Assembly: GCF_041435015.1 (NCBI RefSeq)
Contig: NZ_CP107989.1
Coordinates: 1,116,001-1,180,000, forward strand
Direction of reading: 5' to 3'
From: Streptomyces canus
GTDB lineage: Bacteria; Actinomycetota; Actinomycetes; Streptomycetales; Streptomycetaceae
DNA: 64,000 nt
Positions 12,170-30,040 of the stretch are shown here, piece by piece. A model generated the notes under the pieces. The model did no database searches and was not told where the DNA came from. It saw only the letters and a program-made list of their open reading frames with translations. Position numbers and translations under genes: made by a program. Numbering within the stretch: position 1 is the stretch's first letter; each line of letters opens with the position of its first letter.

Positions 12170-12778
12170 TCAGGGTCGGAGAACGCCGAGCAGGGCCCGC
12201 GCGCACAGATCGCGCACCTGTTCCCGGGAGAGGTCCGAGCCCCTCAGCCACTCCAGACAGACGGCCGTGGTGAAGGCCAGCCAACCGCGGACGGCCAGCC
12301 GAAGGTCGGGGCGCTCTTCGGCCTGGGCCCCGAACTCCGGATCCGCGGCCAGCGCCGCCAGGATCTGCCGCTCCTGTGCGGCCAGCGCCCGCTGGTAGAC
12401 CTTGCGGACGGACTGGTCCCCGGCGGCGTCGGCACGGTGAAAGGCCCGGTAGCCGTGCGCGTGCGCCGACACGTACTCCAGATAGGTGTCCAGCCCCGCG
12501 GTGAGCTGCTCGCGCACCGGGACGCCGGGCACGGCCGCGGTCATGGCCAGCATCCGCCCGCTCTCGCGCTCGACGACCGCCGCGAAGAAGTCCCGCTTCG
12601 TCGGGAAGTAGTGATAGAGCAGCCCGCGCGAGACACCGGCGATCTCCGCGACCTGCTCGATCCACACCTCGTCGTACGGGCTCTCCGAGAACAGCCTCGC
12701 CCCCACCGACAGGAGTTGCTCCCGGCGCTCCCCGGTGCTGAGCCTGCGGCGCGCGCGCTCGCCCTGCTTCCCGGCCAT
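12170..12778 (-). CDS. TetR family transcriptional regulator
   Basis: A 202-residue protein with a classical TetR helix-turn-helix (about residues 18-62: LFSESPYDEVWIEQVAEIAG then SRGLLYHYFPTKRDFF). An all-helical ligand domain follows. It is divergent from the P450 gene with a 107-base gap that contains a matching inverted repeat, so it probably represses itself and the P450 and responds to a P450 substrate or a fatty-acid-like ligand. Confidence 0.9.
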   Translation of the reverse strand: MAGKQGERARRRLSTGERREQLLSVGARLFSESPYDEVWIEQVAEIAGVSRGLLYHYFPTKRDFFAAVVERESGRMLAMTAAVPGVPVREQLTAGLDTYLEYVSAHAHGYRAFHRADAAGDQSVRKVYQRALAAQERQILAALAADPEFGAQAEERPDLRLAVRGWLAFTTAVCLEWLRGSDLSREQVRDLCARALLGVLRP

Positions 12779-12800
12779 GCCCGCACTTTACTTGACGCCG

Positions 12801-12838
12801 GTTCAACAACGGGATCAGACTGAGGCGCGTTATTGAAC
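12801..12838. promoter_or_regulatory. inverted repeat between TetR regulator and P450 (likely TetR operator)
   Basis: gttcaacaacg (12801-12811) and cgttattgaac (12828-12838) are inverted copies with one mismatch over 11 bases, 16 bases apart. They lie midway between the two divergent start codons. This is the expected position for an operator that covers both promoters. Confidence 0.6.
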
Positions 12839-12885
12839 CCACGTACAACGCGCTCAACTGCCGCTGGATCAAGGGAGATCTCGTC

Positions 12886-14406: not shown

Positions 14407-15195
14407 GTCCGGCAGCCGGGTGCCGGCGCTGCCCCGGGCGGCGTTCAGCTGGGGCTGGGTGAGGAAGAAGGCGCCCGTCAGGTCCGCGTCCGTCAGGTCG
14501 GCGTCGCGCAGATCGGCACCGATCAGATCCGCGCCGCGCAGGTCGGCGCCGGTGAGGTCGGCCGCTATGAGATAGGCGCCGCGAAGGGTGGCTCCGCGCA
14601 GGTCGGCGCCCTGGAGACGGGCGCCCATCAGGTCCGCGCCCCGGCGGTTCTTCCTCCCCTTCGCGACGCCGAATCCGGCCCGCACCAGCTCGCTGGTCCT
14701 CAGCAGAAGGACGTTGACCTCCTGCCGGTGCGCGGCGACGTCCAACGCGGCGAGTTCTTCGGCGGTCCCCCGGGTGAGCGCGTCGGTCCGCTCCCGCATG
14801 CGGCGCAGGTCGGCGTGGACCGGGCGGGCGGCGGGCAGGGTGAGTGCCTCGGTGAGGTACCAGAGCAACTCGTGGAGCTGGCGCACGACCGGGAAGACGT
14901 CGAACATCCGGCGGGCGTCCTCGCGCGGGCCCGTACGCCAGTCCCGGCCGGCGAAGGTGACCTGCGAGACCTTCTGCCCGGCGCCGAAGCAGTCGTAGAC
15001 CGTGCATCCGGTGTAGCCCTCGACGCGCAGTTTCGCGTGGATGCCGCACCGGTGGTCGTCCCGGAGGTTGGGACAGGGCGTGCCGGCCGGCTTGTCGCGG
15101 GCGAAGTCCGCTGAGGCGGTGAAGGGCAGGGCGACACAGCACAGCCCGAAGCACCGCGCGCAGTCGCCGCTGAGATCGATCATTTGTTCTTGCAT
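14374..15195 (-). CDS. pentapeptide-repeat protein with N-terminal Cys cluster
   Basis: A 273-residue protein. Residues 1-75 contain eight cysteines in pairs ([27 protein letters not shown]), suggesting a metal or iron-sulfur site. A helical middle is followed by about twelve pentapeptide repeats A(D/N)LXX (residues about 185-250, such as [14 protein letters not shown]), which fold into a right-handed quadrilateral helix. The function of this architecture is unknown. ATG 15195 is used; ATG 15183 is an alternative. The island end begins only 10 bases upstream, so the native promoter has been replaced or lost. Confidence 0.8.
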
Positions 15196-15307
15196 CGCCG
15201 CCAGCCTAGTAGTGCTTCGTCAGGCCTATGCATGAGCGCTGGAACCCAGCCCCCTGATCTTGGACACACGAGACACTGGATCCTGAGGATCTGAGAACGG
15301 ACATCTC

Positions 15308-15634
15308 GTGGTCATGAAGAACTATCCGCCGCAGTTCAAGGCGGACGCGGTCGCGCTGTACCAGTCGCGGCCCGAGGCGACGATCCGGCAGGTTGCCGCC
15401 GATCTGGGCATCAATCCCGAGCCCCAGCGGAACTGGGGCCGGGCAGCGGGCGCGAGCTGGCCGCGGGGTCACCGGGCAGAGGTAACCTCCGAGCCGCCGA
15501 CGCCGTTGGACGCCGTTGGACGCCGTTGGACGCGGAGAACGCCGCCCTCCGCAAGAAGGTCCTCGGACTGGAAGCGGGAACGCGAGATCCTGCGCAAGGC
15601 AGCGAAGTATTTCGCCGGGGAGACGCGCTGGTGA
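15308..15634 (+). pseudogene. IS3 transposase orfA with compensated frameshift
   Basis: The N-terminus (KNYPPQFKADAVALYQSRPE, then IRQVAADLGI) is a normal IS3 OrfA helix-turn-helix, and the C-terminus (REILRKAAKYFAGETRW) is also normal. Between them about 30 codons are out of frame. Three copies of a 10-base unit where one is expected add 20 bases, and an extra G near 15575 adds one more, so the original frame resumes. Without these changes the region would read the usual LDAENAALRKKV leucine-zipper segment. Confidence 0.75.
15501..15530. repeat. 10-bp triplication inside IS3 orfA
   Basis: Three perfect tandem copies of cgccgttgga. A single copy would restore the family reading frame (PPTPLDAEN), so two copies appear to be a later slippage expansion. 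Confidence 0.9.
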
Positions 15635-15747
15635 CCCGCTTCCAGTTCGTCGCCGACCACCAACCGCAATAACACCCGACGCCGTCACTCCCGCGCCGGG
15701 CACCGCAGCCCCGGGAGCGGGTGCATCCGCGCCGCGGCCGTGGGCCG

Positions 15748-16749
15748 TTAGGGACGTCCAGCGATGTTGTTCGCCCATACCGCGACATGACCAGGGGCGT
15801 AGACGACGAGGTTGCGGTCGTCTTGGAGTTCCAGGATGGAGCCTGGTTTGCCTGACGTGGCGGATGCCCATACGGGGCGGTTGCCTGGGGCGACGACGAC
15901 CAGGTTTCCATCTGCTTGCATGAACAGAACTGAGTTCGAAACCCGGGTGTTGGTGGCCCAGATGGCTCGCCCGCCGGGGATGTATTCGACCAGGTTTCCG
16001 TCGGTCTGCAGGACAAGAACATTGAGTCCGTTGGGGCTGGCCAGTCGGTCGCCGGGGTTGAGGCGTTGTCCGGGGAGCAGCCGCCCCCAAGCGGCTGTCA
16101 GGGACGACGACGCCCGTGAGGGGAACGCAATCCGGACGGGGCCGCCCATCCGGGAGGTCATCTTCGCTGTCTTGTCGGCGAAGACGCACCACGCAGGATC
16201 ACTTCCCCCGTGCCCGAGGCACGACGTGGCTTCCTTCGGGCTGGACTTCCTGGCCCAGTGGCCGCGTTGGAAATTGAGATAGACCTCGGCGTAGTTCTGA
16301 GGGGTGGAGATCTCCCGCACATGCAGTTCTGTGACGTACTCGTGATCGGGCTGGAGCTGCGCGGCCGAGGAGGTGCCGACGGTGAGAGTGCGTCCCGGTC
16401 CGCGGTCGTCGTACTCGGTGTCGAGGTAGGCGTTGGGAAGGTTGGAGCGGTAGGACTTGATGCCGTTCTTCACGCCACCGTAGGTTTCGGCATCCACTTC
16501 GAGAGACCTTGATCCGGTGCATCGCAGTGCTGTGATCTCACTGCGGGAGAAGGTGAAGGCTGTTCGGACGACGAGTTCTTTGAAAGTGTGCCCGGCAGAT
16601 GAGTCCGTGTACTGGACTGTCAGGCTTCCCGCACCTGGCGTCCAGGTGCCGCAGTCGGCGGCTTGCGCCTGAACTGGCTGGAACAGGGAGGCTGTCAATG
16701 CCGCGGTAAACGCAGCAATCGCAGAGATTCCCCGGCGTAGTTGATACAC
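15748..16749 (-). CDS. secreted protein with C-terminal bulb-type mannose-binding lectin domain
   Basis: A 333-residue protein. GTG 16749 follows a purine-rich AAGGGGGA and gives a clean signal peptide (MYQLRRGISAIAAF, hydrophobic core, cleavage near VQAQA). The middle (about residues 30-210) is an unrecognised extracellular domain with four cysteines. The last 110 residues form a B-lectin fold with three QxDxNxVxY-type sites: LQTDGNLVEY, MQADGNLVVV and LQDDRNLVVY. Such lectins bind mannose or similar sugars. A role in surface binding is inferred. It is the first intact gene after the IS3 remnant. Confidence 0.8.
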   Translation of the reverse strand: MYQLRRGISAIAAFTAALTASLFQPVQAQAADCGTWTPGAGSLTVQYTDSSAGHTFKELVVRTAFTFSRSEITALRCTGSRSLEVDAETYGGVKNGIKSYRSNLPNAYLDTEYDDRGPGRTLTVGTSSAAQLQPDHEYVTELHVREISTPQNYAEVYLNFQRGHWARKSSPKEATSCLGHGGSDPAWCVFADKTAKMTSRMGGPVRIAFPSRASSSLTAAWGRLLPGQRLNPGDRLASPNGLNVLVLQTDGNLVEYIPGGRAIWATNTRVSNSVLFMQADGNLVVVAPGNRPVWASATSGKPGSILELQDDRNLVVYAPGHVAVWANNIAGRP

Positions 16750-17244
16750 ACATCCCCCTTGTGCAGCCACCTTTGCATCCGATGGGGATGCTGGTCGCGG
16801 TGTCGTGCGGGCTCATCCTGCGCCATGGACCTGTGTCACAACAGGGCACAACTTCGGCGCAAGGAAGCGCTGCTGGGCGCGAAACGTGGCACGCACGCCC
16901 ACGGTTCACATGTCGATCCGGTGGTGGGCAGTTGGCGTGGGGGGCCTTGACCTCGAATCCTGGACACGGTTATGCGGCTGGTGTCAGCGTAGTTGGTGTT
17001 GTTCGGGACGCTGTTTCGTAGGCGATGGGGTGTCGTCGCCCTCAACACTGCGGGGGTACATAACCGCCTCTCTGCTCGTCCACATCGAGCAGGTCGCACG
17101 GGACGCCGGTTAGGCGCTCCGCGTGGTCTGCGCCCTGGTGCCTGGTCGCTCCCTGAACGCATGGTGCGGGTGGCCGTCGACGCGCCGGGCCGGTGCGGTC
17201 GGGACGAGAGTCGGGCATCCTGGGAAAGACCGAGCGAGGTGCTG
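16750..17244. other. gene-free divergent region inside the island
   Basis: This region of 495 bases separates the divergent lectin and HAD genes. Short open frames exist on both strands, but none has a ribosome site together with convincing codon use. It must contain both promoters; I could not identify them with confidence. Composition is more even in bases than in the core genome, consistent with acquired DNA. Confidence 0.5.
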
Positions 17245-17913
17245 ATGCGATACGACGCCGTCCTCTTCGACTTCTCCGGAACGCTCTTCGGGCGCGCCGA
17301 CGGCTACGCCTGGCTGTTCCCCGAAGGGGAGACGGACGAATCGATCCAGCGCGCCGTGGTGGACGCCCTGCGCTTTCCCGGCCGTCAACTCGGCTCGATG
17401 ACCGGCGCCGAGCGGGAATGCTGGGAGTTTCGCGACCTCTCAGACGAGGCGAACCGGCAGGCCTATCGCGCCCTTTTCCGCATCGCGGGACTCGAATGCG
17501 AGGCATTGTTCGACACCGTCTTCGATCGGCTGACCGACGAACGCCACTGGGCGGCCTACGCGGACACCCGCCCCACCCTGGAACACCTGAGCAGGGCCGG
17601 CCTGCCCGTGGGTGTCCTCAGCAACATCACCTGGGACATCCGCCGGGCCTTCGGACGCGAGGAGTTGACACCGCTGGTGGACGACTTCGTCCTGTCCTAC
17701 GAAGTCGGATGCTGCAAACCGGAGCCGGACATCTTCCGGACCGCCTGCGAGCGGCTGGCAGTGCCTCCGAAGCGCTGCCTGCTGCTGGGTGACGACGAGG
17801 TGACCGACGGCGGCGCCGTACGGGCGGGCCTGGGGTTCGCGCACGTCGCCACGGGACCGGTGGGACGACGGCCCCCGGTGCTGATGGCGGCCCTCGCACA
17901 GCACGGCCTGTGA
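17245..17913 (+). CDS. HAD-superfamily hydrolase
   Basis: A 222-residue protein with the HAD motifs: motif I DFSGTLF (nucleophile Asp9), motif II GVLSNITWD (Ser in LSN), the motif III Lys in CCKPEPDIF, and motif IV LLGDDEVTDGG. The second Asp of the usual DxD is replaced by Ser11, which removes the standard general acid of HAD phosphatases, so the reaction could be dehalogenase-like or an atypical phosphatase. The start is ATG 17245 after GAGG; an upstream extension lacks a ribosome site. It ends 8 bases before the convergent TIR-STAND gene. Confidence 0.82.
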   Translation: MRYDAVLFDFSGTLFGRADGYAWLFPEGETDESIQRAVVDALRFPGRQLGSMTGAERECWEFRDLSDEANRQAYRALFRIAGLECEALFDTVFDRLTDERHWAAYADTRPTLEHLSRAGLPVGVLSNITWDIRRAFGREELTPLVDDFVLSYEVGCCKPEPDIFRTACERLAVPPKRCLLLGDDEVTDGGAVRAGLGFAHVATGPVGRRPPVLMAALAQHGL

Positions 17914-17921
17914 CGGCTCGG

Positions 17922-20900
17922 TCAGTGTGCCCTCCGCCTGGCCTCCTTGATTAGTGTGTGCACGTCACACTCCGGTGCCGACAGGGGACGGGCCGGCCCG
18001 TCAGATAGGTCCCACAGACAGATGCTGCCTGCGGTCGCTGCGGTGACGGCCTGGTCTTCCGAGCCCGTCCATAGGGCCCGTACGACGGGACCTCTGTCCG
18101 CCCGTGCGACGGTGAGCTGCCCGCCGGTCCCCGGGTGCCAGGTGCGCGCGGTCCCATCGTCCGAGGCGGAGAGCAAAGTGGCGCCCTGGGGCGACCACGC
18201 GAGGGAGTTCACGGACGCTGAGTGTCCGTACAGCCGAAGCAGTTCGGTCGCCGATGGGCGGGAGCCCAGTTCCGTACCCAGCATGATCACGGTCCCGTCG
18301 GTGCAGCCCACCGCGAGCCGCTCGCCGTCCGGGCTCCAGGCGAGGCTAGTGAACACCTTGTCCGTCTCCCAGTGGGCCACAGTCTGGTCGAGGGCGTTGA
18401 GGGTGACCATGTTGTCCTGACCGGCGACGGCGAAAATGGGGTGTTCCGGGTGCCAGGCGACGGCCCGCAGGAAGCTGTGGTGGCCGCGCCAGCGCCGGTC
18501 GCCGTCGAGCGGCCGGCCGTCTCGGTCGTACAACCTCGGGCGCCAGGTGCGGTCTCTCGAGACCACGGCGATGTACCGGCCGTCGGAGGACCATTGGGCG
18601 TCCGTGACGCCGTCGTGGGCCCGCGCGATGACGTTCGGCTCCCAACGCGGACGCGTGTCCGTGGTGGGCAGGACGAAGGCCGTACCTTCGAGTGAGCCGA
18701 CGAGGAGGCGTCGGCCGTCCGGGGACCATGCCAGGGAGGACACCTGGTGCGCGTACAGCCGATAGACCTTGCTGGCCCGGTCCGCGAAGTCCAGGTACCC
18801 GCTCTCCACCGCCCCGTCGGCGCGGGTCACGTCGTCCCGAATTCCCACGATCAGGCGGTGGGTGGCTGCGGACCAGGCCAGGCTGGTCACCCTTCCCTCC
18901 CGCATCGTCCTGCGATCCTTCGGTTCCGCCCCGACCTTCCACACACGTGTCTTCCCGTCGTCCGACGCCGAGGCGAGCCGGTCGCCCGCGTGCGACCAGG
19001 CGACGTCACACACGCCTTGCCCGTGATCGGCCAGCGTCAGGAGCTCACCCACCGAGCCCGGCGTCCAGACGCGCACGGTCTCGTCCGCCGAGGCCGTGGC
19101 CACCCGAAGTCCGGACGGCGACCAGCTCACCCGGCGCACTTGGTCCCGGTGCCCCTGAAACGCCCTCGACGCCGAATCGAGCTGGATGACGTGCGCGTTG
19201 TTCGCCTGGTCGCCCGTGGCCACATAGTTCGCATGAGGACTGAACCGCACCGTCCGCACCGTAGGTCGCCCTCTGCCGGGCGGCACAAGATGCCTGACGG
19301 GCGTGAGAGTGTCCCGGGCGTGCAGGTCGACACCACCGTCCTCCCGTGCCGTCGCCACGAACCTCCCATCGGCCGACAAGTCGGCGTCCCACAGCCGCAC
19401 CGGCTGCCCCTCCTCGTCCACACTGGTGTAAGTCCGGACTGGTTCGCGACTGAGCCCGCGTACGGCGTGCAGATACGCCCTGCCGTCCGCGCACGCCACC
19501 AGCACATGGTCACCGGACGAGTCGAAGCGCACTGACCACGGACGGTTGGGCAGGGGAATAAGGTTGGCCTCGCGGCGGTCCGTCCAGGACCAGAGACGTA
19601 CTGTCTCGTCAGTGGCGGCGGAGGCGATCAGGTCGCCTTGCGGTGACCAGTCCACCGAACGGACCCAGCCCGGGTTGTCCCCCCTGCGTTCTTGACCGTG
19701 GGTGAAGCGGGCAAGGCAGGTACCGGAGTTGATGTCCCAGACGCGGACGGAGCCGTCCTTCGAGCCGGTCACGAGCTTGGAGTCGTCCGGCGACCACGCG
19801 ACACCCCACACGCCCTGTTCGTGCCCGAGCAGCGTCCGGGTGAGGCTGACGTCGCCCAGGACGCGGCGCAGGGCGCGTTCCCACGAGGTGATGTCCGGTG
19901 CGTGCAGGAGCATGGTGAGCACGTCGTCGCCCGGTGCGGATCCGGCACCGACGAGCATGCGCAGGGGGGTCTGAGGGTTCGCCACCATGACCAGGGCACG
20001 AGCCACCTCCTCCTCGAGGTTGCGCTGCAGCGACACCTCCATCAGGCGGAGCGCCGCATCGGAGAGTTGGAGGGCGATCAATCTTTCGAGCAGCTCGGGC
20101 CAGCGGTGCTTGAAGACCGGAGGCCGTCCGTCCGGCTTGAGTGGCGGGGAGAGGAAGCTCAGGAGGCGCATGAGACGCGAAGGCGGGAGGAGTTGGTCGT
20201 GAGGGTGGCCCGCCTCCTGCCAGACGAGGGCGAGGTCCTCGATCTCCTGGCGGGCCCGCAGAGAGTCCCGTTCCTGGTCGAGTTCGGCCCGCAGCCGCGG
20301 CCAGTGCAGGAACAGACTCTCGTGGGCTACCTGGACGAAGTTTCGGGTCGTCGTCCGAAAGGTCGTGAGCACCCGGCACTTCACGAACGGCTCCAGCAAC
20401 GAAGTCTCGTCAGGGGGCAGTTCGCCCAACTGCACGGCCCGGCGGGTGTATCTGCCCGATGCGTCGACCGACACCAGGCGGCGCAGCGCCCGCAGCACGC
20501 GCTGCTCGGCCAGCCCCTGAGTGATGGTCCGGCCGACGGCGTTCAGTGCGACGCTGCGGGCTAGCCCGAAGGCCTCTTCGGCCTGTACCCGCAGCACGTC
20601 CTGCACGCACCCGGCCGCCAGGTAGTCGTGCAGGCCGATGATCCTCGGTTCCTGGTGTCCGTCCGGATTGACGTGCCGCCACAGCTCGTCCAACGCGAAC
20701 GCGAGCAGCGGCAGTGCTTCACCGCCGGCGTCCTCCACCACACGGCCCAGGGCCTCGTCGCTCATGCGCCAGCCCAGCCGGTCCAACGGGCCGTTGATGA
20801 TCTGTGGCAGATCGGCTCGGCTTAGCGGTTTGACGAGGAAGTCGTCGCGGACTAGGGGCGCCAGTAACTCCTTGGTCATCAGTGCGTCGAGCAGGTCCGC

Positions 20901-21872
20901 CCGGACCGTGTAGACCAGCCAGGCCTGTTTGTGCGTGGCGGAGATCAGCGCGGAGACCAGAGTCCTGGTCTCGCCCTCTCCCCACAGGAGCTCCTCGGCC
21001 TGGTCGAGGACGATGAGGACGCGGGCCTCCGGCGCGGCCCGAGTGATGTGGGACAGCAACGTGTCGAGGCTGTCGGGCGATTCAGCGATGAACTCTTCGA
21101 CCGCCTCTGCGGTGGACAGGTCCAGCCCCATGTCGCCCCGGATCTCCGCGATCCCCGCGCCCAGTGCGGTGACGCCTTCCTCGGGCCGGAATGGCCCGAG
21201 GACGAGCCATATCGGTGCGGAGCCGTCGCGAGCCGTCGGCCGACGGCGCAGACGAGGCACGAGCCCCGCTCTGACCAACGATGACTTGCCCGCACCCGAG
21301 GGGCCGACCACGGCGAGCGTGCCGCTCCTGCGTGAGCCCAACAGCGGGCGGGCCAGGTGTTCGGTTTCCTCCTGCCGGCCGAAGAAGATGCTCGCGTCGC
21401 CCTCTTCGAAGGTACGCAGGCCGGGGAAGGGTGAGGTGAGCCCGGGCGCCGTGGACACCCCGTGCGAAGACAACAGGCGCACCGCGGTGGCGACGGCGCT
21501 GTCCATCGACGAGGGGTCGTGCCGGTTCACGAACGCGGTCTGGCGGTGGTTCAGGAGGGCACGGCCCTGTTCCAGGTCGCTGCTGACGAACTCCACGACG
21601 AGTGCGTCCGGCTTGCGTTCGCGGAAAACGGCGATCTCCCAGGTGCACCACTCCGCCGTCATCGAGCCCTTTGTGGTCACCACGAGAAGGCCATCGGCGC
21701 CCAGCAGGCTGCTCCGCAGCCCCTGGCGCCACTCATAGGATGCGGGTGGGCCGTGCTCGGCCAGGTTGTACGCGTAACAGTCCTGGAAACCGGCGCGCTC
21801 CAGACCGGCAACCAGCCGGTGCGCGATGTCACGGCCATCCGAGGCGTGGTAACTCACGAAGACACGGCCCAT
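17922..21872 (-). CDS. TIR-STAND NTPase-WD40 protein (candidate NAD-depleting defence sensor)
   Basis: A 1316-residue protein. Residues 1-135 are a TIR domain (VFVSYHASDGRDIAHRL; Glu79 in EWCTWE is the likely NAD-hydrolysing residue). Residues about 145-560 are a STAND-type NTPase with SPFPGLRTFEEGDASIFFGR, Walker A GPSGAGKSS near 190-198 and Walker B VLIVLDQAEELLW near 290, then a winged-helix/helical region. Residues about 680-1300 contain 14 WD40 repeats, probably two seven-bladed propellers. Known relatives are inactive until the propeller senses a trigger; the NTPase then oligomerises and the TIR consumes NAD, stopping phage growth by host shutdown. No Shine-Dalgarno site precedes the ATG, and only 46 bases separate it from the divergent NUDIX start. 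A TTA codon lies at 20865-20867. Confidence 0.85.
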   Translation of the reverse strand: MGRVFVSYHASDGRDIAHRLVAGLERAGFQDCYAYNLAEHGPPASYEWRQGLRSSLLGADGLLVVTTKGSMTAEWCTWEIAVFRERKPDALVVEFVSSDLEQGRALLNHRQTAFVNRHDPSSMDSAVATAVRLLSSHGVSTAPGLTSPFPGLRTFEEGDASIFFGRQEETEHLARPLLGSRRSGTLAVVGPSGAGKSSLVRAGLVPRLRRRPTARDGSAPIWLVLGPFRPEEGVTALGAGIAEIRGDMGLDLSTAEAVEEFIAESPDSLDTLLSHITRAAPEARVLIVLDQAEELLWGEGETRTLVSALISATHKQAWLVYTVRADLLDALMTKELLAPLVRDDFLVKPLSRADLPQIINGPLDRLGWRMSDEALGRVVEDAGGEALPLLAFALDELWRHVNPDGHQEPRIIGLHDYLAAGCVQDVLRVQAEEAFGLARSVALNAVGRTITQGLAEQRVLRALRRLVSVDASGRYTRRAVQLGELPPDETSLLEPFVKCRVLTTFRTTTRNFVQVAHESLFLHWPRLRAELDQERDSLRARQEIEDLALVWQEAGHPHDQLLPPSRLMRLLSFLSPPLKPDGRPPVFKHRWPELLERLIALQLSDAALRLMEVSLQRNLEEEVARALVMVANPQTPLRMLVGAGSAPGDDVLTMLLHAPDITSWERALRRVLGDVSLTRTLLGHEQGVWGVAWSPDDSKLVTGSKDGSVRVWDINSGTCLARFTHGQERRGDNPGWVRSVDWSPQGDLIASAATDETVRLWSWTDRREANLIPLPNRPWSVRFDSSGDHVLVACADGRAYLHAVRGLSREPVRTYTSVDEEGQPVRLWDADLSADGRFVATAREDGGVDLHARDTLTPVRHLVPPGRGRPTVRTVRFSPHANYVATGDQANNAHVIQLDSASRAFQGHRDQVRRVSWSPSGLRVATASADETVRVWTPGSVGELLTLADHGQGVCDVAWSHAGDRLASASDDGKTRVWKVGAEPKDRRTMREGRVTSLAWSAATHRLIVGIRDDVTRADGAVESGYLDFADRASKVYRLYAHQVSSLAWSPDGRRLLVGSLEGTAFVLPTTDTRPRWEPNVIARAHDGVTDAQWSSDGRYIAVVSRDRTWRPRLYDRDGRPLDGDRRWRGHHSFLRAVAWHPEHPIFAVAGQDNMVTLNALDQTVAHWETDKVFTSLAWSPDGERLAVGCTDGTVIMLGTELGSRPSATELLRLYGHSASVNSLAWSPQGATLLSASDDGTARTWHPGTGGQLTVARADRGPVVRALWTGSEDQAVTAATAGSICLWDLSDGPARPLSAPECDVHTLIKEARRRAH

Positions 21873-21918
21873 GCAGACATCGTGCGGGAAGTGCCGGGGG
21901 CGGGATAGGTGGTTGCGT

Positions 21919-22383
21919 ATGAAGAGGGACTACTTGAACGAATCTGACGCGCCGCGAGCGAACAGGCTCTGGCCAGTGGTGAATGTGGCGGTGTTTGGAC
22001 CGCATGGCCTGCTGCTGATCGAGCGCGCCGACGACGGCTACTGGGCCATGCCCGGGGGCATGGTCGATGTGGGAGAGGGCTTCACCGAAGCGGCTGTGCG
22101 GGAGGTGCGTGAGGAGACCGGACTCGAGGTGACCATTACAGGACTGGTCGGCTTGTATTCTGATCCCGGTCATGTCACGGCCTTTGACGACGGAACGGTG
22201 AGCCAGGAGTGTTCGATCGTCTTCCGCGGCCGCGAGGTCGGAGGAACGATCCGCACGAGTGACGAGTCACGCAGCGTGAGATACGTCCCGCTTCCGGAGA
22301 CGGCCCCCCTCATCATGCACCCCTCTATGCGACTGCGCGTCGGTCACGCGGTCATGGAAAGCCACGTTCCGTATCTGGGCTGA
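21919..22383 (+). CDS. NUDIX hydrolase (first of two in the island)
   Basis: A 154-residue single-domain NUDIX protein. The NUDIX box is complete: GGMVDVGEGF then AAVREVREETGLEV (GX5EX7REUXEEXGU) at about residues 46-70, with all metal-binding Glu residues. Such enzymes cut X from nucleoside-diphosphate-X, for example ADP-ribose, NADH or modified dNTPs. It is divergent from the TIR-STAND gene, with a shared 46-base promoter gap, and followed after 25 bases by a membrane-protein gene. The context suggests work on a product or signal of TIR chemistry; the substrate is not determined. Confidence 0.88.
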   Translation: MKRDYLNESDAPRANRLWPVVNVAVFGPHGLLLIERADDGYWAMPGGMVDVGEGFTEAAVREVREETGLEVTITGLVGLYSDPGHVTAFDDGTVSQECSIVFRGREVGGTIRTSDESRSVRYVPLPETAPLIMHPSMRLRVGHAVMESHVPYLG

Positions 22384-22408
22384 GGCCCAGGGAAAGGACT
22401 TTGCCCTC

Positions 22409-22972
22409 ATGGGTTTCCGGGCGGTACTGAGGAACTACGTCGGCACTGCGACGACCCCGCTGGAGGACGTGCGCCCCACCGTGTGGAACCGGCCTTCCCA
22501 ACTGAGTGACAAGCCCCTCGACGGCGGTCGGGACCACGCCGTCCTGCTGGAGCAGTACAAGCTGTACGTGGAGATGGCCGACAGGGTCAGCGCCCGCAGG
22601 AGCCTGACCAACACCTTCTTCCTCACGCTCAACACGACCGTCTTTGCGGCCATCGGCGCCACCTGGAAAGACGGGCCGCACACGGGCTCCTGGCTGCTCG
22701 TCTTCCCTCTCGTCGCGCTGCTTGTGCAGTGCGGTGCCTGGTTCGTCCTGCTGCGGTCCTATCGGCAGTTGAACTCGGCGAAGTACACGGTGATAGGCGT
22801 GCTTGAGGAGAGGCTACCCGCCTCTCCGTATGGGAGGGCGGAGTGGACAGCGCTCGGTGAGGGGAAGGACAAGGCCAAGTACTGGCCGCTGACACATCTG
22901 GAGCAGTGGGTGCCTGTGACGTTCGCCTGCACGTATGCGGGCGGGTTCATCGCGCTATTGGCGTCGCGATGA
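22409..22972 (+). CDS. small membrane protein, RipA-family / SLATT-like
   Basis: A 187-residue protein. A soluble N-terminal part with LLEQYKLYVEMADRVSARR leads into two transmembrane segments (NTFFLTLNTTVFAAIGA and WLLVFPLVALLVQCGAWFVL). A charged loop follows with LGEGKDKAKYWPLTHLEQWV and a last hydrophobic stretch (PVTFACTYAGGFIALLA). The pattern fits the RipA-like family, which is similar in layout to SLATT pore-forming effectors of nucleotide-signalling conflict systems. The ribosome site GGAAAGGA precedes ATG 22409. Co-transcription with the NUDIX gene is likely. Whether it forms a pore is inference. Confidence 0.7.
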   Translation: MGFRAVLRNYVGTATTPLEDVRPTVWNRPSQLSDKPLDGGRDHAVLLEQYKLYVEMADRVSARRSLTNTFFLTLNTTVFAAIGATWKDGPHTGSWLLVFPLVALLVQCGAWFVLLRSYRQLNSAKYTVIGVLEERLPASPYGRAEWTALGEGKDKAKYWPLTHLEQWVPVTFACTYAGGFIALLASR

Positions 22973-23219
22973 CCACGATGCTGCCCGCGTAAGGTTCGGC
23001 GGGGAGGAGGCCCTCGCGTCGTGCAGTAGTGATGCGGCGCAGCGGTAGGCGGCGCCTTGTGCCGCCGTCGCGTATCACCAGCAACTGCGTGTGCGCAGCG
23101 CCGAAGGATCCTCTCCCGATGGACTACCCCGTTATGTTTTCCGCGGTCCTGCAAGGGGACCGCTGGCCTCCGGACCTGGCATGGCTGGTCCCCCCCTGTC
23201 GAACCGATGACCTGGAGGG

Positions 23220-24100
23220 GGGTGGTGCCACCGGATCCGAGAGGCGCCGTTGGAGACCCGCACACCCTGCGCTCGCTGGAGCTGTCCGACGAGATCACCG
23301 CCGAGCTCAGCGTCCTCGTCGGCTTCGACCAGGACCTGGCGGCCGAGGCCACCCGCACCAGCAACCGGATCCGGGGCCTGCTCACCCAGTTCCACCCGTC
23401 CCCGGAACGAGTCCTGGGCCCGCGTCTAGATCACCAGGCGGTCACCTGGCTGCTGGAGCGCTACGGATCCCCCACCAGCTTGCGAAAGGCCGGACGCCGC
23501 AAGCTCGTTGAAGTGATCAGGCCCAACGCCCCACACATGGCGAAGCGGCTGATCGACGATGTCTTCGATGCCCTCGACGAGCAGACCGTCGTGGTCCCGG
23601 GCACCGGCACCCTGGACGTCGTGATCGAGTCGCTGGCCCGCTCGCTCGGCGCCATTCACGAACAAAGGCGGGCGGGAGAAGCCCAGATCACAGCCCTGCT
23701 GGAGGACCAGCCTCTTTCCAAGGTCCTGACGTAGCTGCCCGGCGTCGGCGTCAGGACCGCCGCCGCACTGTTGGTCACCGTCGGCGACGGCACCAGCTTC
23801 CGCACCACCGCCCACCTCGCCTCCTACGCCGCCTCGCCCCGACCACGAAGTCCTCGGGGAGCCCGATCCACGGCGAACACGCACCCCGAGGCGGCAACCG
23901 GCAGCTCAAACGCGCGATGTTCCTCTCCGCGTTCGCCGCCCTGCACGATCGCCTCCCGCACCTACTACGACAAATGCCGGGCCAGAGGAAAGACCGACAC
24001 GCAATCCCTCCTCCGCCTCGCCCGCCAGCGGATCAACGTGCTGTTCGCGATGCTCCGCGACGGCACCTTCTATGAACCCAGACCCCCACGCCTCGCTTGA
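23220..24100 (+). pseudogene. IS110-family transposase remnant
   Basis: The translation from HTLRSLELSDEITAEL onward follows the middle of IS110 transposases (LAAEATRTSNRIRGLLTQ, GRRKLVEVIRPNAPHMA). A TAG at 23732 interrupts it directly before the C-terminal Transposase_20 motif (LPGVGVRTAAALLVTVGDGT). At least two further frameshifts occur around 23830-23940 before YYDKCRARGKTDTQSLLRLA. The N-terminal RuvC-like DEDD catalytic domain is almost entirely missing upstream of about 23240. The element is therefore dead. Between 22973 and 23220 there is no gene, only probable IS debris. Confidence 0.8.
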
Positions 24101-24189
24101 CGAAGGACTGCGTTGGCACCTTGGAGAGATCGCGCTGTTGGGCGTCACACTCCGTTGTGTGCGCCGTTGGAGCCGGAGTTGTGCCACGG

Positions 24190-24801
24190 CTAAATAGAGT
24201 CTGCCTTCATGGCATTGTCCGCCATGAGCAGTGCTGCGGCGGTCTCAACACCGTGAATGGTCCGTCCGACGCTGGTGAGGGCCTCTGCCAGTGGCATGGA
24301 GCAGACGCTCATGTCGAAGTACTTCTCGATCTGCGTGTCCCCGGGAGGCTTTTCGGTTCCTTGGAGCACTGACGATGCCAAGAAGAGGTGGATGTTCCTG
24401 TTGGTTTCAGAAGGCAAGAGGAAGTAGTCGCCCAGATCGATCAGAGAAGACTCCGGGTCCAGCTCAAATCCGGTCTCCTCCCATAGTTCGCGGAGGGCGG
24501 CATCTTTGGGACTTTCCCCTCGCAGGACTGTCCCGGCCGGAAGTTCAAGGGTGTATTTTTTCAGGTTGTGGCGGTACTGACGGATGAGTACGACGTCGCC
24601 GCCTGCCGTAATGGGAACGATCATGACGCTGCTGGGCGTGTCGAGGTAATACCAGTCGATCTCCTCGCCATCCGGCATGCGCAGTTTCTCGCGCACGAAC
24701 CGTTTGGGCCCTTCGGTGATCACCTCCGTCTCCATCAACTCGGCGTTCTGCATGGTGGGTCCTGCAGTCTTTTTGCGTGACCTGCGTTTCAAAGCGAACA
24801 T
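24190..24801 (-). CDS. NUDIX hydrolase, ADP-ribose pyrophosphatase-like, coupled to TIR gene
   Basis: A 203-residue protein. The fold starts near residue 40 (KLRMPDGEEIDWYYLDTPSS), with VVLIRQYRHNLKKYTLELPA and the NUDIX box GTVLRGESPKDAALRELWEETGF near 90-112. The QYR...ELPAG block is typical of ADP-ribose/NDP-sugar pyrophosphatases (NudF type), which turn ADP-ribose into AMP and ribose 5-phosphate. Its ATG lies 3 bases after the stop of the upstream TIR gene, and its ribosome site (GGAAGGGG) lies within that gene's last codons, so translation is coupled. It may remove or modify the TIR reaction product, or act as a brake on the system; this is inference. Confidence 0.85.
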   Translation of the reverse strand: MFALKRRSRKKTAGPTMQNAELMETEVITEGPKRFVREKLRMPDGEEIDWYYLDTPSSVMIVPITAGGDVVLIRQYRHNLKKYTLELPAGTVLRGESPKDAALRELWEETGFELDPESSLIDLGDYFLLPSETNRNIHLFLASSVLQGTEKPPGDTQIEKYFDMSVCSMPLAEALTSVGRTIHGVETAAALLMADNAMKADSI

Positions 24802-24804
24802 CTT

Positions 24805-25860
24805 TCACCCCTTCCATGGTCTCGACTCGACCCACACTTTTTGAAAATGTCGAGAATAGCGAACGAACATTCCATTGGAATCAGCGCTTTCTAGTTCGAA
24901 TGTGGGCGTGTTGTCGCCTGAGATATAGCGCACATAAGGCGTGATGAGAATGCGATCGTCGCCGCGGACGATGCTGACGGTAGGTGGCCCGTCATACACA
25001 TGCACCTTCATTCGTCCGTCGCAGGCTTCAGACATGACGCGAAAGCGAGCAAGGGCTGCCCGGATCCGTGGAGCGATGGTTCCTGACGGGTTGCCCTCCT
25101 CCCGGTCCACACTGAGCGTTCCGCTGTGCTCTGGATCTAACAGGAGCACACGGATGTCGCAGCCTCTGCCCGCCGCGCTCGCCAGCAGTTCGGGGACCTC
25201 GTCGTCGTCGGCGTACCCGTGTTCTGCCATTCCGTAGAGCCAGACGTGTTGGCCGGCACCCTGCAGTACCTCGTTCCAAGTGTGACGCGGTACCGCGCCC
25301 CTGATCGGGTATGCCTTGATCAGGTCAGGCAGTCCTGGTGCCCGCACGGGAGACACCTTTGCCGCTTTCAAATCTTTCAAGATCTGATCTGCGGCAGGGC
25401 GGACCGCATTGGCCAGCTGGTCCAAGTACGTCACCGCGTCCGGCGACGGCGGAGCGCCGTGACACCGGGGATCCTGGTAGAGCACCCAGGTGACGCCGAG
25501 GAGATCGCTGGGCAATGCCAGGTTCTTGGCACAGTGGCCGCACAGTAGGCCGAACGTGCGCTCCCGGCCGAGCGCTCCGATGAACAGGCCCAACTCGAAG
25601 ACGACATTGTCCCGGGGCGTCCAGGAACTGGTTCCCTCCCTGGTGCGGAGATCGTCGGTGGTCAGAACCAGCACAGCGCCGTCGATCTCTGACTGCGCGA
25701 TCTCATCCAATCGCTCGATCACCGTCGTAGAAGCGGCGAAAGCACGGTCGAACCAGGCAGTTGGGGCAGCCGCTAGGGACAAGGCCTCGCGCAGGGCATG
25801 GGCAATATCCTTGGCTTCGCCTGATGAACCAATGAAGATCCGCGGCCTGAACGTCACCAC
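24805..25860 (-). CDS. TIR-like (Cap12/Pycsar type) fused to DUF5919 sensor domain
   Basis: A 351-residue protein. Residues 5-150 form the TIR-like domain of CBASS Cap12 and Pycsar effectors: RIFIGSSGEAKDIAHALREAL, AVLVLTTDDL, and PRDNVVFELGLFIGALGR with Glu89 as the likely catalytic residue for NAD cleavage. Residues about 178-350 match DUF5919: PIRGAVPRHTWNEVL, GCDIRVLLLDPEHSG, RIRAALARF, VSIVRGDDRILI and a YSRHFQKVW end. In other actinobacterial proteins DUF5919 is usually joined to a helix-turn-helix, so joining it to a TIR effector is unusual; it probably senses a ligand. GTG 25860 is the start. A TTA codon lies at 25138-25140. The composition is less GC-rich than the core genome. Confidence 0.82.
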   Translation of the reverse strand: MVTFRPRIFIGSSGEAKDIAHALREALSLAAAPTAWFDRAFAASTTVIERLDEIAQSEIDGAVLVLTTDDLRTREGTSSWTPRDNVVFELGLFIGALGRERTFGLLCGHCAKNLALPSDLLGVTWVLYQDPRCHGAPPSPDAVTYLDQLANAVRPAADQILKDLKAAKVSPVRAPGLPDLIKAYPIRGAVPRHTWNEVLQGAGQHVWLYGMAEHGYADDDEVPELLASAAGRGCDIRVLLLDPEHSGTLSVDREEGNPSGTIAPRIRAALARFRVMSEACDGRMKVHVYDGPPTVSIVRGDDRILITPYVRYISGDNTPTFELESADSNGMFVRYSRHFQKVWVESRPWKG

Positions 25861-25893
25861 TGCCAGCGCCCCCGCCCGGTGTCACGCACACCC

Positions 25894-26118
25894 TCAGCTC
25901 TCCATGAGAGTCTCGCACTCAGGAACCCATTTTATGCACCGAGGACAAAAGTCGAGCCCGCCCGCCGTCGTCGATGATCGCGGACAGTCTGGCATCGCTT
26001 CCCGGTTCGTGAGGCCCTGTCGAACTGGGCGATGGAACGCGGGAGTGCTGCTGCTCGAAGGAGGCTGGGTCCGCACCAGTCCACGCCAGACGCGGCCGGC
26101 GTGACCTGCAATAGCCAC
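25894..26118 (-). CDS. doubtful 74-codon ORF upstream of the TIR gene
   Basis: The frame ends with DFCPRCIKWVPECETLMES, a possible CXXC zinc ribbon, 33 bases before the TIR start on the same strand. The start (GTG 26118) has only a weak ribosome site, and the first 45 residues look like random translation. It may be a real small protein, a remnant, or chance. Confidence 0.2.
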   Translation of the reverse strand: MAIAGHAGRVWRGLVRTQPPSSSSTPAFHRPVRQGLTNREAMPDCPRSSTTAGGLDFCPRCIKWVPECETLMES

Positions 26119-26385
26119 CGCTCTCGGAGTTGAGGTTGGGAGCTGACGTCATGGTGCGGACTGTGGTGGCCGCCACCGACAACGAGCCCGTGGATCCTCG
26201 CACGGTCGGTGCCGGTCGGTATGCCGCTGGGGGTTCAGAAGCCGTCGAGGAAGTCGAGGTAGCCCCATCTTGGCCTCGTCGGCCCGCTGGACGTACCGGG
26301 CGGCACAGAGCCGCCGAACGAGCACGGTTCACTTCATGTGTGTCCACACACCCCACATGCTCTTGGTCAGCATCAACGAATTGAC
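26119..26385. other. non-coding or decayed segment at the right end of the island
   Basis: No convincing gene is seen on either strand. The last 20-30 bases are the right inverted end of the island. The rest probably represents eroded insertion-sequence DNA, since several short frames (for example one ending RPRWGYLDFLDGF on the minus strand) look like broken protein ends. Confidence 0.4.
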
Positions 26386-26402
26386 CTAACGAAGCACTAC
26401 TA

Positions 26403-26542
26403 GGGCCTGTCCGGCGGATCAGGCCGACTTCAAGCAACGGTGTCTGATCAGTGCGGGTGGGCGGGTCATGGGCGTCTCGGCTTCGCTCGAGCGGGGTGCG
26501 TGCCAGACCCCGCGACGGCGGCATGATCCGCCGGACAGGCCC
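26403..26542. mobile_element. 140-bp MITE-like element with perfect 19-bp terminal inverted repeats
   Basis: gggcctgtccggcggatca (26403-26421) is repeated perfectly inverted at 26524-26542. The 102-base interior has no start codon with a ribosome site and no transposase; it reads through as a Arg/Pro-rich translation on the minus strand only by chance. The structure is that of a non-autonomous miniature element mobilised in trans. No clear target duplication was found. It abuts the right end of the 11-kb island. Confidence 0.8.
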
Positions 26543-26692
26543 CAACGGCCCCGCCGACCGGCCGACCTGACGAGAACTCACCGATGAGTTTCCGGTGATG
26601 TGGGGGTCTCCTCATCCAACGGAAAACAAGCTCGGCTACCACAGATACACCGGCCGAACCGAGGCAGGAGCCGAACGCATCGAGGAGACGTC

Positions 26693-26893
26693 ATGTGCAG
26701 CCACCAGCCCCCGTGCCCCACCGCCGACAGCCCCTGTCACCACACCGCGGTGATCGTCTCGGCCCATCCCGAACAGGGCTGGAGCCTGCTGTGCAACGGC
26801 ACCATCGTCTTCGACGACACCGGTGAACTCCTGCCGGACGGACGGGTCGTGAGCCCGCACCGCACCCCCGGCGCGCTGGCCACGGCCGCCTGA
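26693..26893 (+). CDS. DUF5999 family protein
   Basis: A 66-residue protein beginning MCSHQPPCPTADS and continuing HPEQGWSLLCNGTIVFDDTG and ELLPDGRVVSPHR, the full signature of the Streptomyces DUF5999 family. Three cysteines and His residues near the N-terminus could bind a metal. GAGGAGAC precedes ATG 26693 at good spacing. The function is unknown. It is convergent with the lipoprotein gene, with one base between the stops. Confidence 0.88.
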   Translation: MCSHQPPCPTADSPCHHTAVIVSAHPEQGWSLLCNGTIVFDDTGELLPDGRVVSPHRTPGALATAA

Positions 26894-26894
26894 G

Positions 26895-27500
26895 TCAATA
26901 CCGTTGCGCCTTCGCCAGCCTGGGTGTCAGCACCGGCTCGGTGGGCTTGCGGCTGACGGCGACCGGCTGCGCCTTCTCCCCCGGCTCGAGGTCCTCGGCG
27001 CCGACGTACCGGGTCTCCACCACCTTGCCGGACGAGTCGAGGAAGTCGACCTGGGCGGCGTACGAGGCCGTCTTGTCGGTCTTGTTGGTGATGGTGACGA
27101 CGACGGCGAGCAGACCGCCGGTCTCGGAGCGCGGCTTGCCGGTCATGGTGACGTCGGACATCGCGTTGCCCTGTCCGTCGACCTTGGCGAGTTCTGTCCG
27201 CGCGGCTTTGTTGGCACGCTCCACCTCCGCGGAGACGGAGGCCTCGAAGGAGGAGGCGGCAGCCGAGGCGGACGCGGCCCGCTGGGAGGCCTCGGCCCGC
27301 ACCGAGGCCTTGGCGGACGCGAGCGCGGAGGCCGCGTTGCCGGAGAAGGAGGCCGTGTCCGGGGCCGTGGGCGTGGCGGAGGACGTCGACGAGCCGCCGG
27401 AGTCGTCGTCGCAGGCCGCCAGGGTGAGCGCGCTCGCGGCGGCCAGGGCCACGGCGAGGGCGGCGATCCGGGACCGTCCGTGGGGTGACGGTGTGCTCAT
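26895..27500 (-). CDS. lipoprotein with FxLyD domain
   Basis: A 201-residue protein. ATG 27500 gives a short basic N-terminus, a hydrophobic run and the lipobox LAAC (Cys near residue 29). A Ser/Ala-rich, helix-forming spacer (ALASAKASVRAEASQRAA and following) is probably a coiled coil lying in the cell wall. The last 90 residues form an FxLyD beta-sandwich (VVVTITNKTDKTASYAAQVD, then GAEDLEPGEKAQ). FxLyD proteins are extracellular; no enzymatic role is known. Confidence 0.85.
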   Translation of the reverse strand: MSTPSPHGRSRIAALAVALAAASALTLAACDDDSGGSSTSSATPTAPDTASFSGNAASALASAKASVRAEASQRAASASAAASSFEASVSAEVERANKAARTELAKVDGQGNAMSDVTMTGKPRSETGGLLAVVVTITNKTDKTASYAAQVDFLDSSGKVVETRYVGAEDLEPGEKAQPVAVSRKPTEPVLTPRLAKAQRY

Positions 27501-27608
27501 CGACTGACGTCCTCTCGACTCCGGCGTCGACACATGGCCGAAATGAACCTTATGCCGGAATCGAGAGTCGGGCATGTCGCCGCCCACGGGCCGTCCGGGT
27601 GTCCGGCG

Positions 27609-28910
27609 TCAGGCCTCCTCACGGGCGAGGGCGAGCAGCCGGTCCAGGACGCGGGGGCCGCCCGCACGGATTCCGTCGTGCTCGAACTCGTCCGTCACCC
27701 AGGTGCGCAGACCGCGGATCGCGCGGGCGGTCTCCAGGGAGTGGACCGTGTCGACGTACATGTCGTCGTGGTAGACGGCGGCGGCGACGGGGACCTCGTT
27801 GACGGCGAGGCGGGCCGGGTCGTAGAGAGGCTGCCAGTCGGTGCGGGCGGCGAGGAGTTCGGCCGTCTCGCGCAGCGGGCGCAGGGCCGGGTCGCAGTCG
27901 AACAGCCAGGGGTGGATGGACTCGCCGGTGAACAGCAACGGCTCGTCGCCGGCGAGGGTCTTGGCCGCGTCGAACTGTGGGAACTCGGCGCGCACCCGTT
28001 CGGCCGACCAGGCGGTGGGGCGCTCGTCCTGGCCGTAGGTCGCCTCGTGGACGAGGGCGTAGAGCGGGTGGGGCGCGTAGGAGAGGAGGCCCTGGACCTC
28101 TTCCTGGAACGCGTCGGAGAGCTCCGGACCCTGCGGGGAGCGGACGAAGGCGTGCTCCAGCAGGTAGTGCAGCCGGTGACTGCCCTCGCCGCCGCCGAGG
28201 AGGATGCCGAGGGACTGGAAGGCCTCGACGGTCAGGCGGTAGCCGTTCGGCAGGGTGACGTCGCGGGTGAGGAGATGGTCGGCGATACGACGGGCCCGTT
28301 CGACGTCCTGCGGATAGCGGGCGTAGTGCGCGGCGACCTTGCGCTCCACACGCGGGTAGGCGGCCCGGTAGACGTCGTCGGCGTGGGCGTCGAGGGAGGG
28401 CAGACCGCCGGTGATGACGGCGGCGGTGAGGCCCTCGGGGGCGAGGGACAGATAGGTCGTGGCGCAGAAACCGCCGAAGCTCTGGCCCAGGACGGTCCAG
28501 GGGGCGCCGCCGGTCACCTGGGCGCGGATCGCCTCGCAGTCGCGGACGATGGAGTCGGCTCGGAAGCGGGCCAGGTAGTCGGCCTGTTCGGCGGGACCGC
28601 CGCGCAGCGGCAGCGTCTGACGGTTGGCCGGTGTGGAGTGGCCGGTGCCGCGCTGGTCGAGCAGGAGGACGCGGAACTCCTTCAGGGCCCGGCCGAACCA
28701 GGCCCCCTTGCCGACGAAACGGTTCGCCCCGAAGCCCGGGCCGCCCTGGAGATAGACCAGCCACGGCAGGTTCTGGCCCGCCTTGTCGCTCGCGACGGCC
28801 TCGCGGGCGTAGAGCTCGATCGTCTCCCCGGCCGGGTCGTCGTGGTCGAGGGGGACGGTGAAGCGGCGATCGGTGAGGACGAGGCCGGGCTGGCGGTAGG
28901 TCGCGGTCAA
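27609..28910 (-). CDS. alpha/beta hydrolase, peptidase S33 (prolyl aminopeptidase type)
   Basis: A 433-residue protein with an alpha/beta hydrolase core. LVYLQGGPGFGANR is the oxyanion-hole segment, LLLDQRGTGHS follows, and GQSFGGF near residue 145 carries the nucleophile Ser. The large cap domain and the end HDDMYVDTVHS (catalytic His region) fit the S33 family, which removes N-terminal proline or acts on related amides and esters. No signal peptide is visible. The start is taken as TTG 28910 after GGGAG; the frame upstream has no better start. Confidence 0.82.
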   Translation of the reverse strand: MTATYRQPGLVLTDRRFTVPLDHDDPAGETIELYAREAVASDKAGQNLPWLVYLQGGPGFGANRFVGKGAWFGRALKEFRVLLLDQRGTGHSTPANRQTLPLRGGPAEQADYLARFRADSIVRDCEAIRAQVTGGAPWTVLGQSFGGFCATTYLSLAPEGLTAAVITGGLPSLDAHADDVYRAAYPRVERKVAAHYARYPQDVERARRIADHLLTRDVTLPNGYRLTVEAFQSLGILLGGGEGSHRLHYLLEHAFVRSPQGPELSDAFQEEVQGLLSYAPHPLYALVHEATYGQDERPTAWSAERVRAEFPQFDAAKTLAGDEPLLFTGESIHPWLFDCDPALRPLRETAELLAARTDWQPLYDPARLAVNEVPVAAAVYHDDMYVDTVHSLETARAIRGLRTWVTDEFEHDGIRAGGPRVLDRLLALAREEA

Positions 28911-29014
28911 CAGGGCTCCCGGGACGGACGGACATGCTGTGGACGCGTCCCAGTTCAGCACATGTTCGTCCGCCGTCCGACCCCTTCGATCATGAAATCT
29001 TACTGACTCCCGGG

Positions 29015-30040
29015 TCAGCGGGCCGCCAGGCTGGAGCGCCGTACCACCAGTTCGGGCTGGAGCACCACCCGGCGGTGGTCGTGCCGCTTGCCGGTGGTCT
29101 CCGCCTCCGTCTCCTCCAGAAGCAGTTCGGCGGCCAGGGCGCCCATGGTGACCGCGGGCTGCCGGACCGAGGTGAGCGGGACGGCCGCGGCGGCGGCGAA
29201 CTCGATGTCGTCGTAGCCGACGATGGCGAGGTCGTCGGGGACCGTGATCCCGGCCGCGTACATGGCCTGCAGGACGCCGAGGGCGAGCAGGTCGTTGGCG
29301 CAGAACACGGCGGTCGGGCGGTCGGCGAGGCCGAGGAGACGGGCGCCGGCGTCCCGGCCCGCGGCCACGTCGAGCCGTTCGGTGGGCAGCTCGCGCAGAT
29401 TCTCGGGACCCAGGCCCGCCTCTGCCAGCGCGTTGAGGGCGCCGGTGCGGCGGTCGCGGACCTGGTTGAGGCCGGGCGGGCCGCTGACGTAGGCGATGGA
29501 GCGGTGCCCGGCGTCCACGAGGTGGCGGACGGCCAGGGCGCCGCCGGCCACGTCGTCGACGGAGACCGAGCACTCGGTGGTGCCCTCGGCGACCCGGTCG
29601 ACGAGGACGAAGGGGATGCCGTGGCGGCGGAAGGAGTCGATGTTGCGGCCGGAGGCGTCGGTCGGGGTGAGCAGGACGCCCCGGACCCGCTGCTCCGCGA
29701 AGAGGGACAGGTACTCCGCCTCCTCGCTCGCGCTCTGGGCGCTGTTGCAGACCATGACGCCGAGACCGTCCTCGCGGGCGGCCCGCTCGGCGCCTCGCGC
29801 GACGTCCACGAAGAAGGGGTTGCCCATGTCGAGCACGAGCAGACCCATGATCCGGCTGCGGCCCGCGCGCAGTTGCCGCGCGGACTCGCTGCGGACATAG
29901 CCGAGCCGGTCTATCGCGGACAGGACGCGCGCCCGGGTCTCGGTGGCGACGGAGTCCGGACGATTGATGACGTTCGAGACCGTGCCGACGGAGACTCCGG
30001 CGGCGCGGGCGACGTCCTTGATACCCACCGACTGGGCCAT
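29015..30040 (-). CDS. LacI family regulator, probable rhamnose regulator
   Basis: A 341-residue LacI-type protein. The N-terminal headpiece (IKDVARAAGVSVGTVSNVIN) is followed by the hinge and a periplasmic-binding-like effector domain (AVFCANDLLALGVLQAM, IVGYDDIEFAAAAAVPLTSV). It is the last gene on the rhamnose transport strand, 80 bases after the BNR_4 gene, so it is probably transcribed with the operon it controls. It most likely binds the TGAAA/TTTCA-type palindromes in the rhaT-rhaI gap and releases them in the presence of rhamnose or a rhamnose metabolite; this assignment rests on position only. Confidence 0.85.
   Translation of the reverse strand: MAQSVGIKDVARAAGVSVGTVSNVINRPDSVATETRARVLSAIDRLGYVRSESARQLRAGRSRIMGLLVLDMGNPFFVDVARGAERAAREDGLGVMVCNSAQSASEEAEYLSLFAEQRVRGVLLTPTDASGRNIDSFRRHGIPFVLVDRVAEGTTECSVSVDDVAGGALAVRHLVDAGHRSIAYVSGPPGLNQVRDRRTGALNALAEAGLGPENLRELPTERLDVAAGRDAGARLLGLADRPTAVFCANDLLALGVLQAMYAAGITVPDDLAIVGYDDIEFAAAAAVPLTSVRQPAVTMGALAAELLLEETEAETTGKRHDHRRVVLQPELVVRRSSLAAR

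Follow-up and report, generated by a model that had tools for sequence, protein, structure and literature searches.

The Cap12 TIR-STING effectors of the cyclic-oligonucleotide-based antiphage signaling system (CBASS) join in one protein a TIR domain of family PF10137, carrying an RDNVVFE motif, and a C-terminal sensor; the Glu of this motif is the catalytic residue of Cap12. The PycTIR effectors of the pyrimidine cyclase system for antiphage resistance (Pycsar) have a TIR domain of the same family. In the archaeal regulators TrmB and TrmBL2, a ligand domain with a phospholipase-D (PLD)-like fold stands behind a DNA-binding domain. The NrtR-type regulators tie NUDIX to transcription control in NAD and ADP-ribose (ADPR) metabolism (PMC9503650); their NUDIX is the sensor and is fused to a helix-turn-helix (HTH) domain. 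Here we analyze a 64,000-nt stretch of the Streptomyces canus genome (contig NZ_CP107989.1, positions 1,116,001 to 1,180,000; hereafter the window), in which a TIR-DUF5919 gene is directly followed by a NUDIX gene. This pair differs from Cap12 in a sensor of predicted PLD-like fold in place of STING, in the NUDIX partner and in the absence of a SMODS CD-NTase; it differs from NrtR in that NUDIX is encoded by a gene of its own and keeps its catalytic box intact. We found that NUDIX accompanies DUF5919 and not the TIR domain specifically, and we file the window protein as a TIR effector carrying its own sensor.

The TIR-DUF5919 and NUDIX gene pair

The TIR-DUF5919 open reading frame (ORF) occupies 24805-25860 of the minus strand and encodes 351 aa from a GTG start. 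Pfam models matched it above cut-off at residues 7-129 (PF10137, CAP12/Pycsar TIR, E 2.6e-26; 25474-25842, minus strand) and 226-348 (PF19319, DUF5919, E 1.5e-8); the whole DUF5919 region covers residues 179-350 (24811-25326, minus strand). The TIR domain contains the motif PRDNVVFE, whose Glu is residue 89 (codon at 25594-25596). An earlier note on this DNA, made from the letters alone, had claimed both this fusion and this motif position, and both are confirmed here. In alignment A1 the Glu is kept by all 21 TIR sequences that span its position, and the domain is probably an NAD-destroying enzyme. No other PF10137 protein is encoded in the whole genome.

The NUDIX ORF (24190-24801, 203 aa; PF00293, E 9e-16) is also on the minus strand; the earlier note had given no strand. 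Its protein belongs to an ADPR pyrophosphatase (ADPRase)-like subfamily and carries a complete Nudix box, GTVLRGESPKDAALRELWEETG, at residues 90-111 (24469-24534, minus strand); all 18 rows of alignment A2 show the complete box. Three nucleotides separate the TIR-DUF5919 stop from the NUDIX start. A sequence that is likely to serve as ribosome site for NUDIX, GGAAGGGG (24808-24815, minus strand), lies inside the 3′ end of the TIR gene, directly before its stop and with its end 6 nt from the NUDIX ATG, in agreement with the coupling described in the earlier note.

The same note would have taken confinement of the pairing to this genome as a refutation; the pair recurs in other Streptomyces records. 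Reading of the DNA revealed whole-length relatives with a NUDIX gene directly downstream in S. althioticus (L011), S. resistomycificus (L012) and S. pseudogriseolus (L013); L011 and L013 are near-identical and are therefore counted as one. Their TIR proteins are 77-83% identical to that of the window, and all three loci have the 3-nt gap and a purine-rich site. Comparison of the window with these loci, at dS of about 1 or above, gave a ratio of nonsynonymous to synonymous substitution rates (dN/dS) of 0.07-0.12 for TIR-DUF5919 and 0.12-0.15 for NUDIX, indicating purifying selection on both genes; a weaker point is the value of 0.40 obtained at dS 0.035 when the TIR genes of L011-L013 were compared mutually. 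Homologous DNA is limited to 24131-25937 for L011/L013 and to 24211-25864 for L012 (with one extra 193-column match, to an IS110-like remnant); the genomes therefore share little beyond the two genes. The two-gene arrangement is not due to chance.

In databases, four TIR-DUF5919 proteins (P0001, P0002, P0006 and P0243) come from contigs exactly equal in size to the contig of a NUDIX relative; this comparison covered 124 DUF5919 proteins and 118/120 NUDIX rows, from the best 120 of 175 and the best 120 of 386 matches. The pair is rare: 392 genomes of the genus yielded one whole-length match besides the window, corresponding to L012, and the NUDIX search across the class (394 genomes, E 1e-35) returned the window copy only. 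Four further DUF5919 loci came from a sample of the phylum (396 genomes, E 1e-12). In two of them (L078 and L081) the Nudix box belongs to an ORF of the same strand that overlaps the DUF5919 ORF and extends beyond its end; a third (L079) has it ∼0.9 kb downstream of DUF5919, with one ORF between; the fourth (L082) has no Nudix box within the 1.5 kb examined.

The pattern scan of viral contigs found no relative. The sole match to the TIR protein in the phage collection was a regulator of Streptomyces phage Alderaan (MT711975.1, 26622-27353; L083 4821-5552), an HTH-DUF5919 protein whose gene lies close to a Cro-like gene and has no adjacent Nudix box; the protein may regulate lysogeny by means of this type of sensor. 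Among plasmids the sole match covering at least 80% was a TIR protein of Acaryochloris marina plasmid pREC4 (L016 5998-7071; 24% identity), whose C-terminal part is weakly DUF5919-like (Pfam 14.9 bits, below cut-off). Spread of the pair by phages or plasmids is not supported by these searches.

Assignment of the pair to known systems was considered as well. The TIR domain fits CBASS, but the whole genome has no match to the SMODS CD-NTase family (PF18144), the C-terminal part is DUF5919 and PLD-like rather than STING, and the full-length NCBIfam Cap12 models gave 79 and 56 bits where the cut-off is 450. The TIR family fits Pycsar too, but the PADLOC PycTIR model matches the TIR half alone (E 1.7e-20), and no cyclase domain occurs among the neighbors scanned (11354-30040; a genome-wide cyclase search was not made). 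Within these bounds the earlier note was right that CD-NTase and cyclase genes are absent. Nor is the pair described in the titles or abstracts returned by literature searches on NUDIX with TIR, ADPR and anti-phage defence, PF10137 TIR domains, Streptomyces phage defence, conflict systems, XRE regulators with NUDIX, Cap12/Pycsar and TrmB-PLD, where subscription papers and preprints outside PMC were mostly beyond reach.

NUDIX genes as partners of DUF5919

A same-strand NUDIX gene lies directly downstream of 37 of 49 DUF5919 ORFs, with the Nudix box 60-600 nt past the stop. The ORFs come from 45 loci of the stronger relatives; the count excludes the weaker relatives, for the most part longer ORFs with a match confined to about residues 226-348. 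For all 49, the 900 nt upstream are free of a Nudix box, as is the opposite strand to a distance of 1 kb. As background, the box pattern occurs in one other ORF in 338.6 kb, and a profile search adds one NUDIX that lacks it, at a distance of 3 kb from the L028 pair. The earlier note had proposed, as a check, to count directly following NUDIX genes; the partner is not specific to TIR, as it is found behind HTH-DUF5919 proteins as well. Most of the DUF5919 proteins counted start with an HTH-like segment (recognized mostly by eye). In seven non-TIR DUF5919 proteins scanned with Pfam, HTH was above cut-off in two (L041 and L028), and DUF5919 itself was below cut-off in two (L068 and L028), where the call rests on a custom profile; in L026 the HTH segment and DUF5919 are in different frames. 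One such HTH-DUF5919-NUDIX pair is located at 4.31 Mb of the window's own genome (L068).

Two NUDIX subfamilies stand beside DUF5919. Most HTH forms are paired with a short NUDIX of ∼155 aa, for instance that of L041 at 3518-3985; the 203-aa ADPRase-like type is paired with the TIR forms and with the five sister-family DUF5919 loci most like that of the window. The correlation between the evolutionary distances of the two partners is 0.939 for 53 pairs (permutation maximum 0.159) and 0.839 for the ADPRase-type subset of 21 pairs (permutation maximum 0.361); 10 HTH-type and three TIR pairs among them were matched by equal contig size, not by DNA reading. Shared ancestry of neighboring genes adds to such a correlation, which therefore speaks for long companionship rather than for contact.

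Direct contact is the core of one alternative, namely that NUDIX is an antidote that acts by binding the TIR protein, as in a toxin-antitoxin pair. The coupled gene order and the parallel divergence would suit it, but two different NUDIX subfamilies accompany DUF5919, and mere binding would not require the Nudix box that is intact throughout alignment A2; we consider this explanation very improbable.

In a tree of 69 rows (P0010, P0013, P0065 and the Acaryochloris row excluded) rooted on the HTH group with short NUDIX, the TIR forms make a basal grade, and 44 non-TIR forms with ADPRase-type NUDIX make a nested clade (support 94/87). The tree as drawn requires two output changes. The approximately unbiased test does not reject a tree constrained to unite all 19 TIR rows (p 0.194), and the branch to the root is very long. 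Single replacement of HTH by TIR was tested on this tree and is not established.

The subfamilies and the tree bear on one of the two functions suggested for NUDIX in the earlier note, clearance of ADPR. NUDIX would then hydrolyze ADPR, the product of the TIR, to AMP and ribose 5-phosphate, which would limit damage or deny phages the ADPR for NAD+ rebuilding by NARP1. Use of ADPR by phages for this purpose is described in PMC12774641 and PMC13232231, and ADPR removal would also hinder it. The nearest solved relatives of the NUDIX protein are mostly ADPR pyrophosphatases and, given a root on the short-NUDIX HTH group, an ADPRase-type partner could have come with the TIR. However, ADPRase-type NUDIX stands also beside HTH forms without TIR, and a different NUDIX stands beside most HTH forms; clearing of TIR-made ADPR is therefore not the general reason for the pairing. 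The protein shares the complete Nudix box with the ADP-ribose pyrophosphatase NudF, but it remains far under the cut-offs of the curated ADPRase models (PRK10729, 13.4 bits versus 248; TIGR00052, 23.9 versus 79.55) and of its best curated model, NudE (58 bits versus 169). ADPR clearance is thus conceivable for the TIR form while failing to account for the HTH pairs, and as an explanation of the operon we find it rather unlikely.

Predicted fold of DUF5919 and a proposed mechanism

DUF5919 was modeled as a PLD fold, and its nearest solved folds include the ligand domains of archaeal TrmB and TrmBL2, with ∼12% identity in the structural alignment. The predicted fold thus has the PLD-like ligand domain that marks the TrmB family; a Pfam scan of proteins with DUF5919 gave no match to that family. 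The HTH-DUF5919 proteins resemble TrmB and TrmBL2 in the order of domains and differ in having a Cro/C1-type HTH, while the window protein has a TIR domain instead. Unlike phospholipase D enzymes, DUF5919 lacks the catalytic HKD motif (HxKxxxxD), which is found in none of 33 rows of A1 and none of the 49 DUF5919 ORFs (HxK alone is present in two A1 rows). Chains of TIR-STING align well to residues 4-171 only. The view of DUF5919 as a catalytically dead PLD-fold sensor of TrmB type gains support from this model, and the ligand-sensing role suggested in the earlier note is backed by the inactive, TrmB-like predicted fold. A literature search returned no paper mentioning DUF5919, most subscription papers and non-PMC preprints being outside its reach.

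We propose, at about even confidence, that the operon encodes a ligand-gated NADase and an enzyme that resets it. The sensor is joined to an HTH-like domain in most relatives and to a Cap12-type TIR here, and binding of a ligand to DUF5919 would alter the assembly of the N-terminal domain, that is, DNA binding in the HTH forms and TIR assembly in the window protein. NUDIX would most likely hydrolyze the sensor ligand, thus setting a threshold and holding the TIR off. The ligand is probably a nucleoside-diphosphate-linked metabolite (NDP-X), because NUDIX enzymes cleave NDP-X compounds (PMC9503650). A rise of the ligand, e.g. in phage infection, would lead to TIR assembly, destruction of NAD+ and growth stop or cell death.

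Several observations weigh against this reading. PLD nucleases and FAM83 domains score near TrmB as structural matches of DUF5919. NUDIX is missing behind 12 of the 49 DUF5919 ORFs, in one case at a contig end; it is likewise missing beside the phage HTH-DUF5919 protein, and none is annotated near the Acaryochloris TIR protein. Some HTH pairs lie beside RiPP-like genes (for ribosomally synthesized and post-translationally modified peptides; by eye), and a defence role is therefore not general.

Genomic surroundings and biological meaning

The codons of the two genes have third-position GC contents of 0.70 and 0.73, below most genes called in the window. A hairpin 3′ of the NUDIX gene (24141-24165, minus strand) is a possible terminator; a similar inverted repeat follows the pair in L011-L013, and with folding z-scores of −0.94 (window), −2.34 (L011) and +0.26 (L012) the terminator reading is weak. 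The module adjoins a degenerate IS110-family transposase gene (23057-24100, plus strand), and in S. resistomycificus a related stretch lies on the module's other side (L012 5517-5700). At a distance of 2.3 kb from the module there is an nSTAND1-WD40 gene (17922-21872, minus strand) for a protein of 1316 aa with a weak match to Thoeris TIR models in its first 90 residues; it is probably a conflict gene. Near the S. resistomycificus copy are a VMAP-M2 gene, at a distance of ∼3.7 kb, and a small gene 1.5 kb away that resembles ParD/Arc (matches below cut-off); VMAP systems have been described as conflict systems (PMC7159879).

A second NUDIX gene of the window (21871-22383, plus strand) belongs to the short subfamily of HTH-DUF5919 partners (at most 52% identity over ∼152 aa) and has no DUF5919 beside it. 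It precedes a gene for an octameric membrane protein (8xMP, PF24838; 22409-22972, plus strand). A short ORF 3′ of the TIR-NUDIX pair in L011/L013 (7738-7953) resembles the start of 8xMP by eye; Pfam gave no match. No link between 8xMP and the module emerged: 8xMP occurs in three of 41 genomes (E 1e-10, own genome included), and the flanks examined around the three other copies contain no Nudix box. In L027 and L028 (genomes G043 and G046), HTH-DUF5919-NUDIX pairs adjoin lanthipeptide-type RiPP enzyme-like genes (by eye).

The case for an anti-phage role of the TIR-DUF5919-NUDIX pair is circumstantial, and the TIR protein could instead be a stress or developmental regulator of the NAD level. 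The relatives are mostly HTH regulators, some of them beside RiPP-like or radical-SAM genes (by eye), as would be expected of a regulator; but the TIR family is that of the CBASS and Pycsar effectors, the distribution is sporadic, the DNA in common with L011/L013 barely exceeds the two genes and conflict genes are nearby. We think such a regulator unlikely.

The ligand-gated reading goes beyond a TIR with an ADPR cleaner, since the domain with which NUDIX is associated is a sensor with two outputs. Somewhat more tentatively than for the operon itself, we suggest that DUF5919 and NUDIX make up a widespread, undescribed actinobacterial signaling module with HTH or TIR as output, the TIR version being a new defence class that would work without CD-NTase or cyclase and be armed by a metabolite that NUDIX suppresses. 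A domain of unknown function thereby gains a predicted fold, a type of role and a regular enzymatic partner. One sensor would connect gene regulation with NAD-depleting immunity, outputs that are as a rule studied separately, and the pair would offer a control of TIR other than STING or cyclic-nucleotide binding. If this is true, the ligand of DUF5919 would be an unrecognized intracellular signal in actinobacteria.
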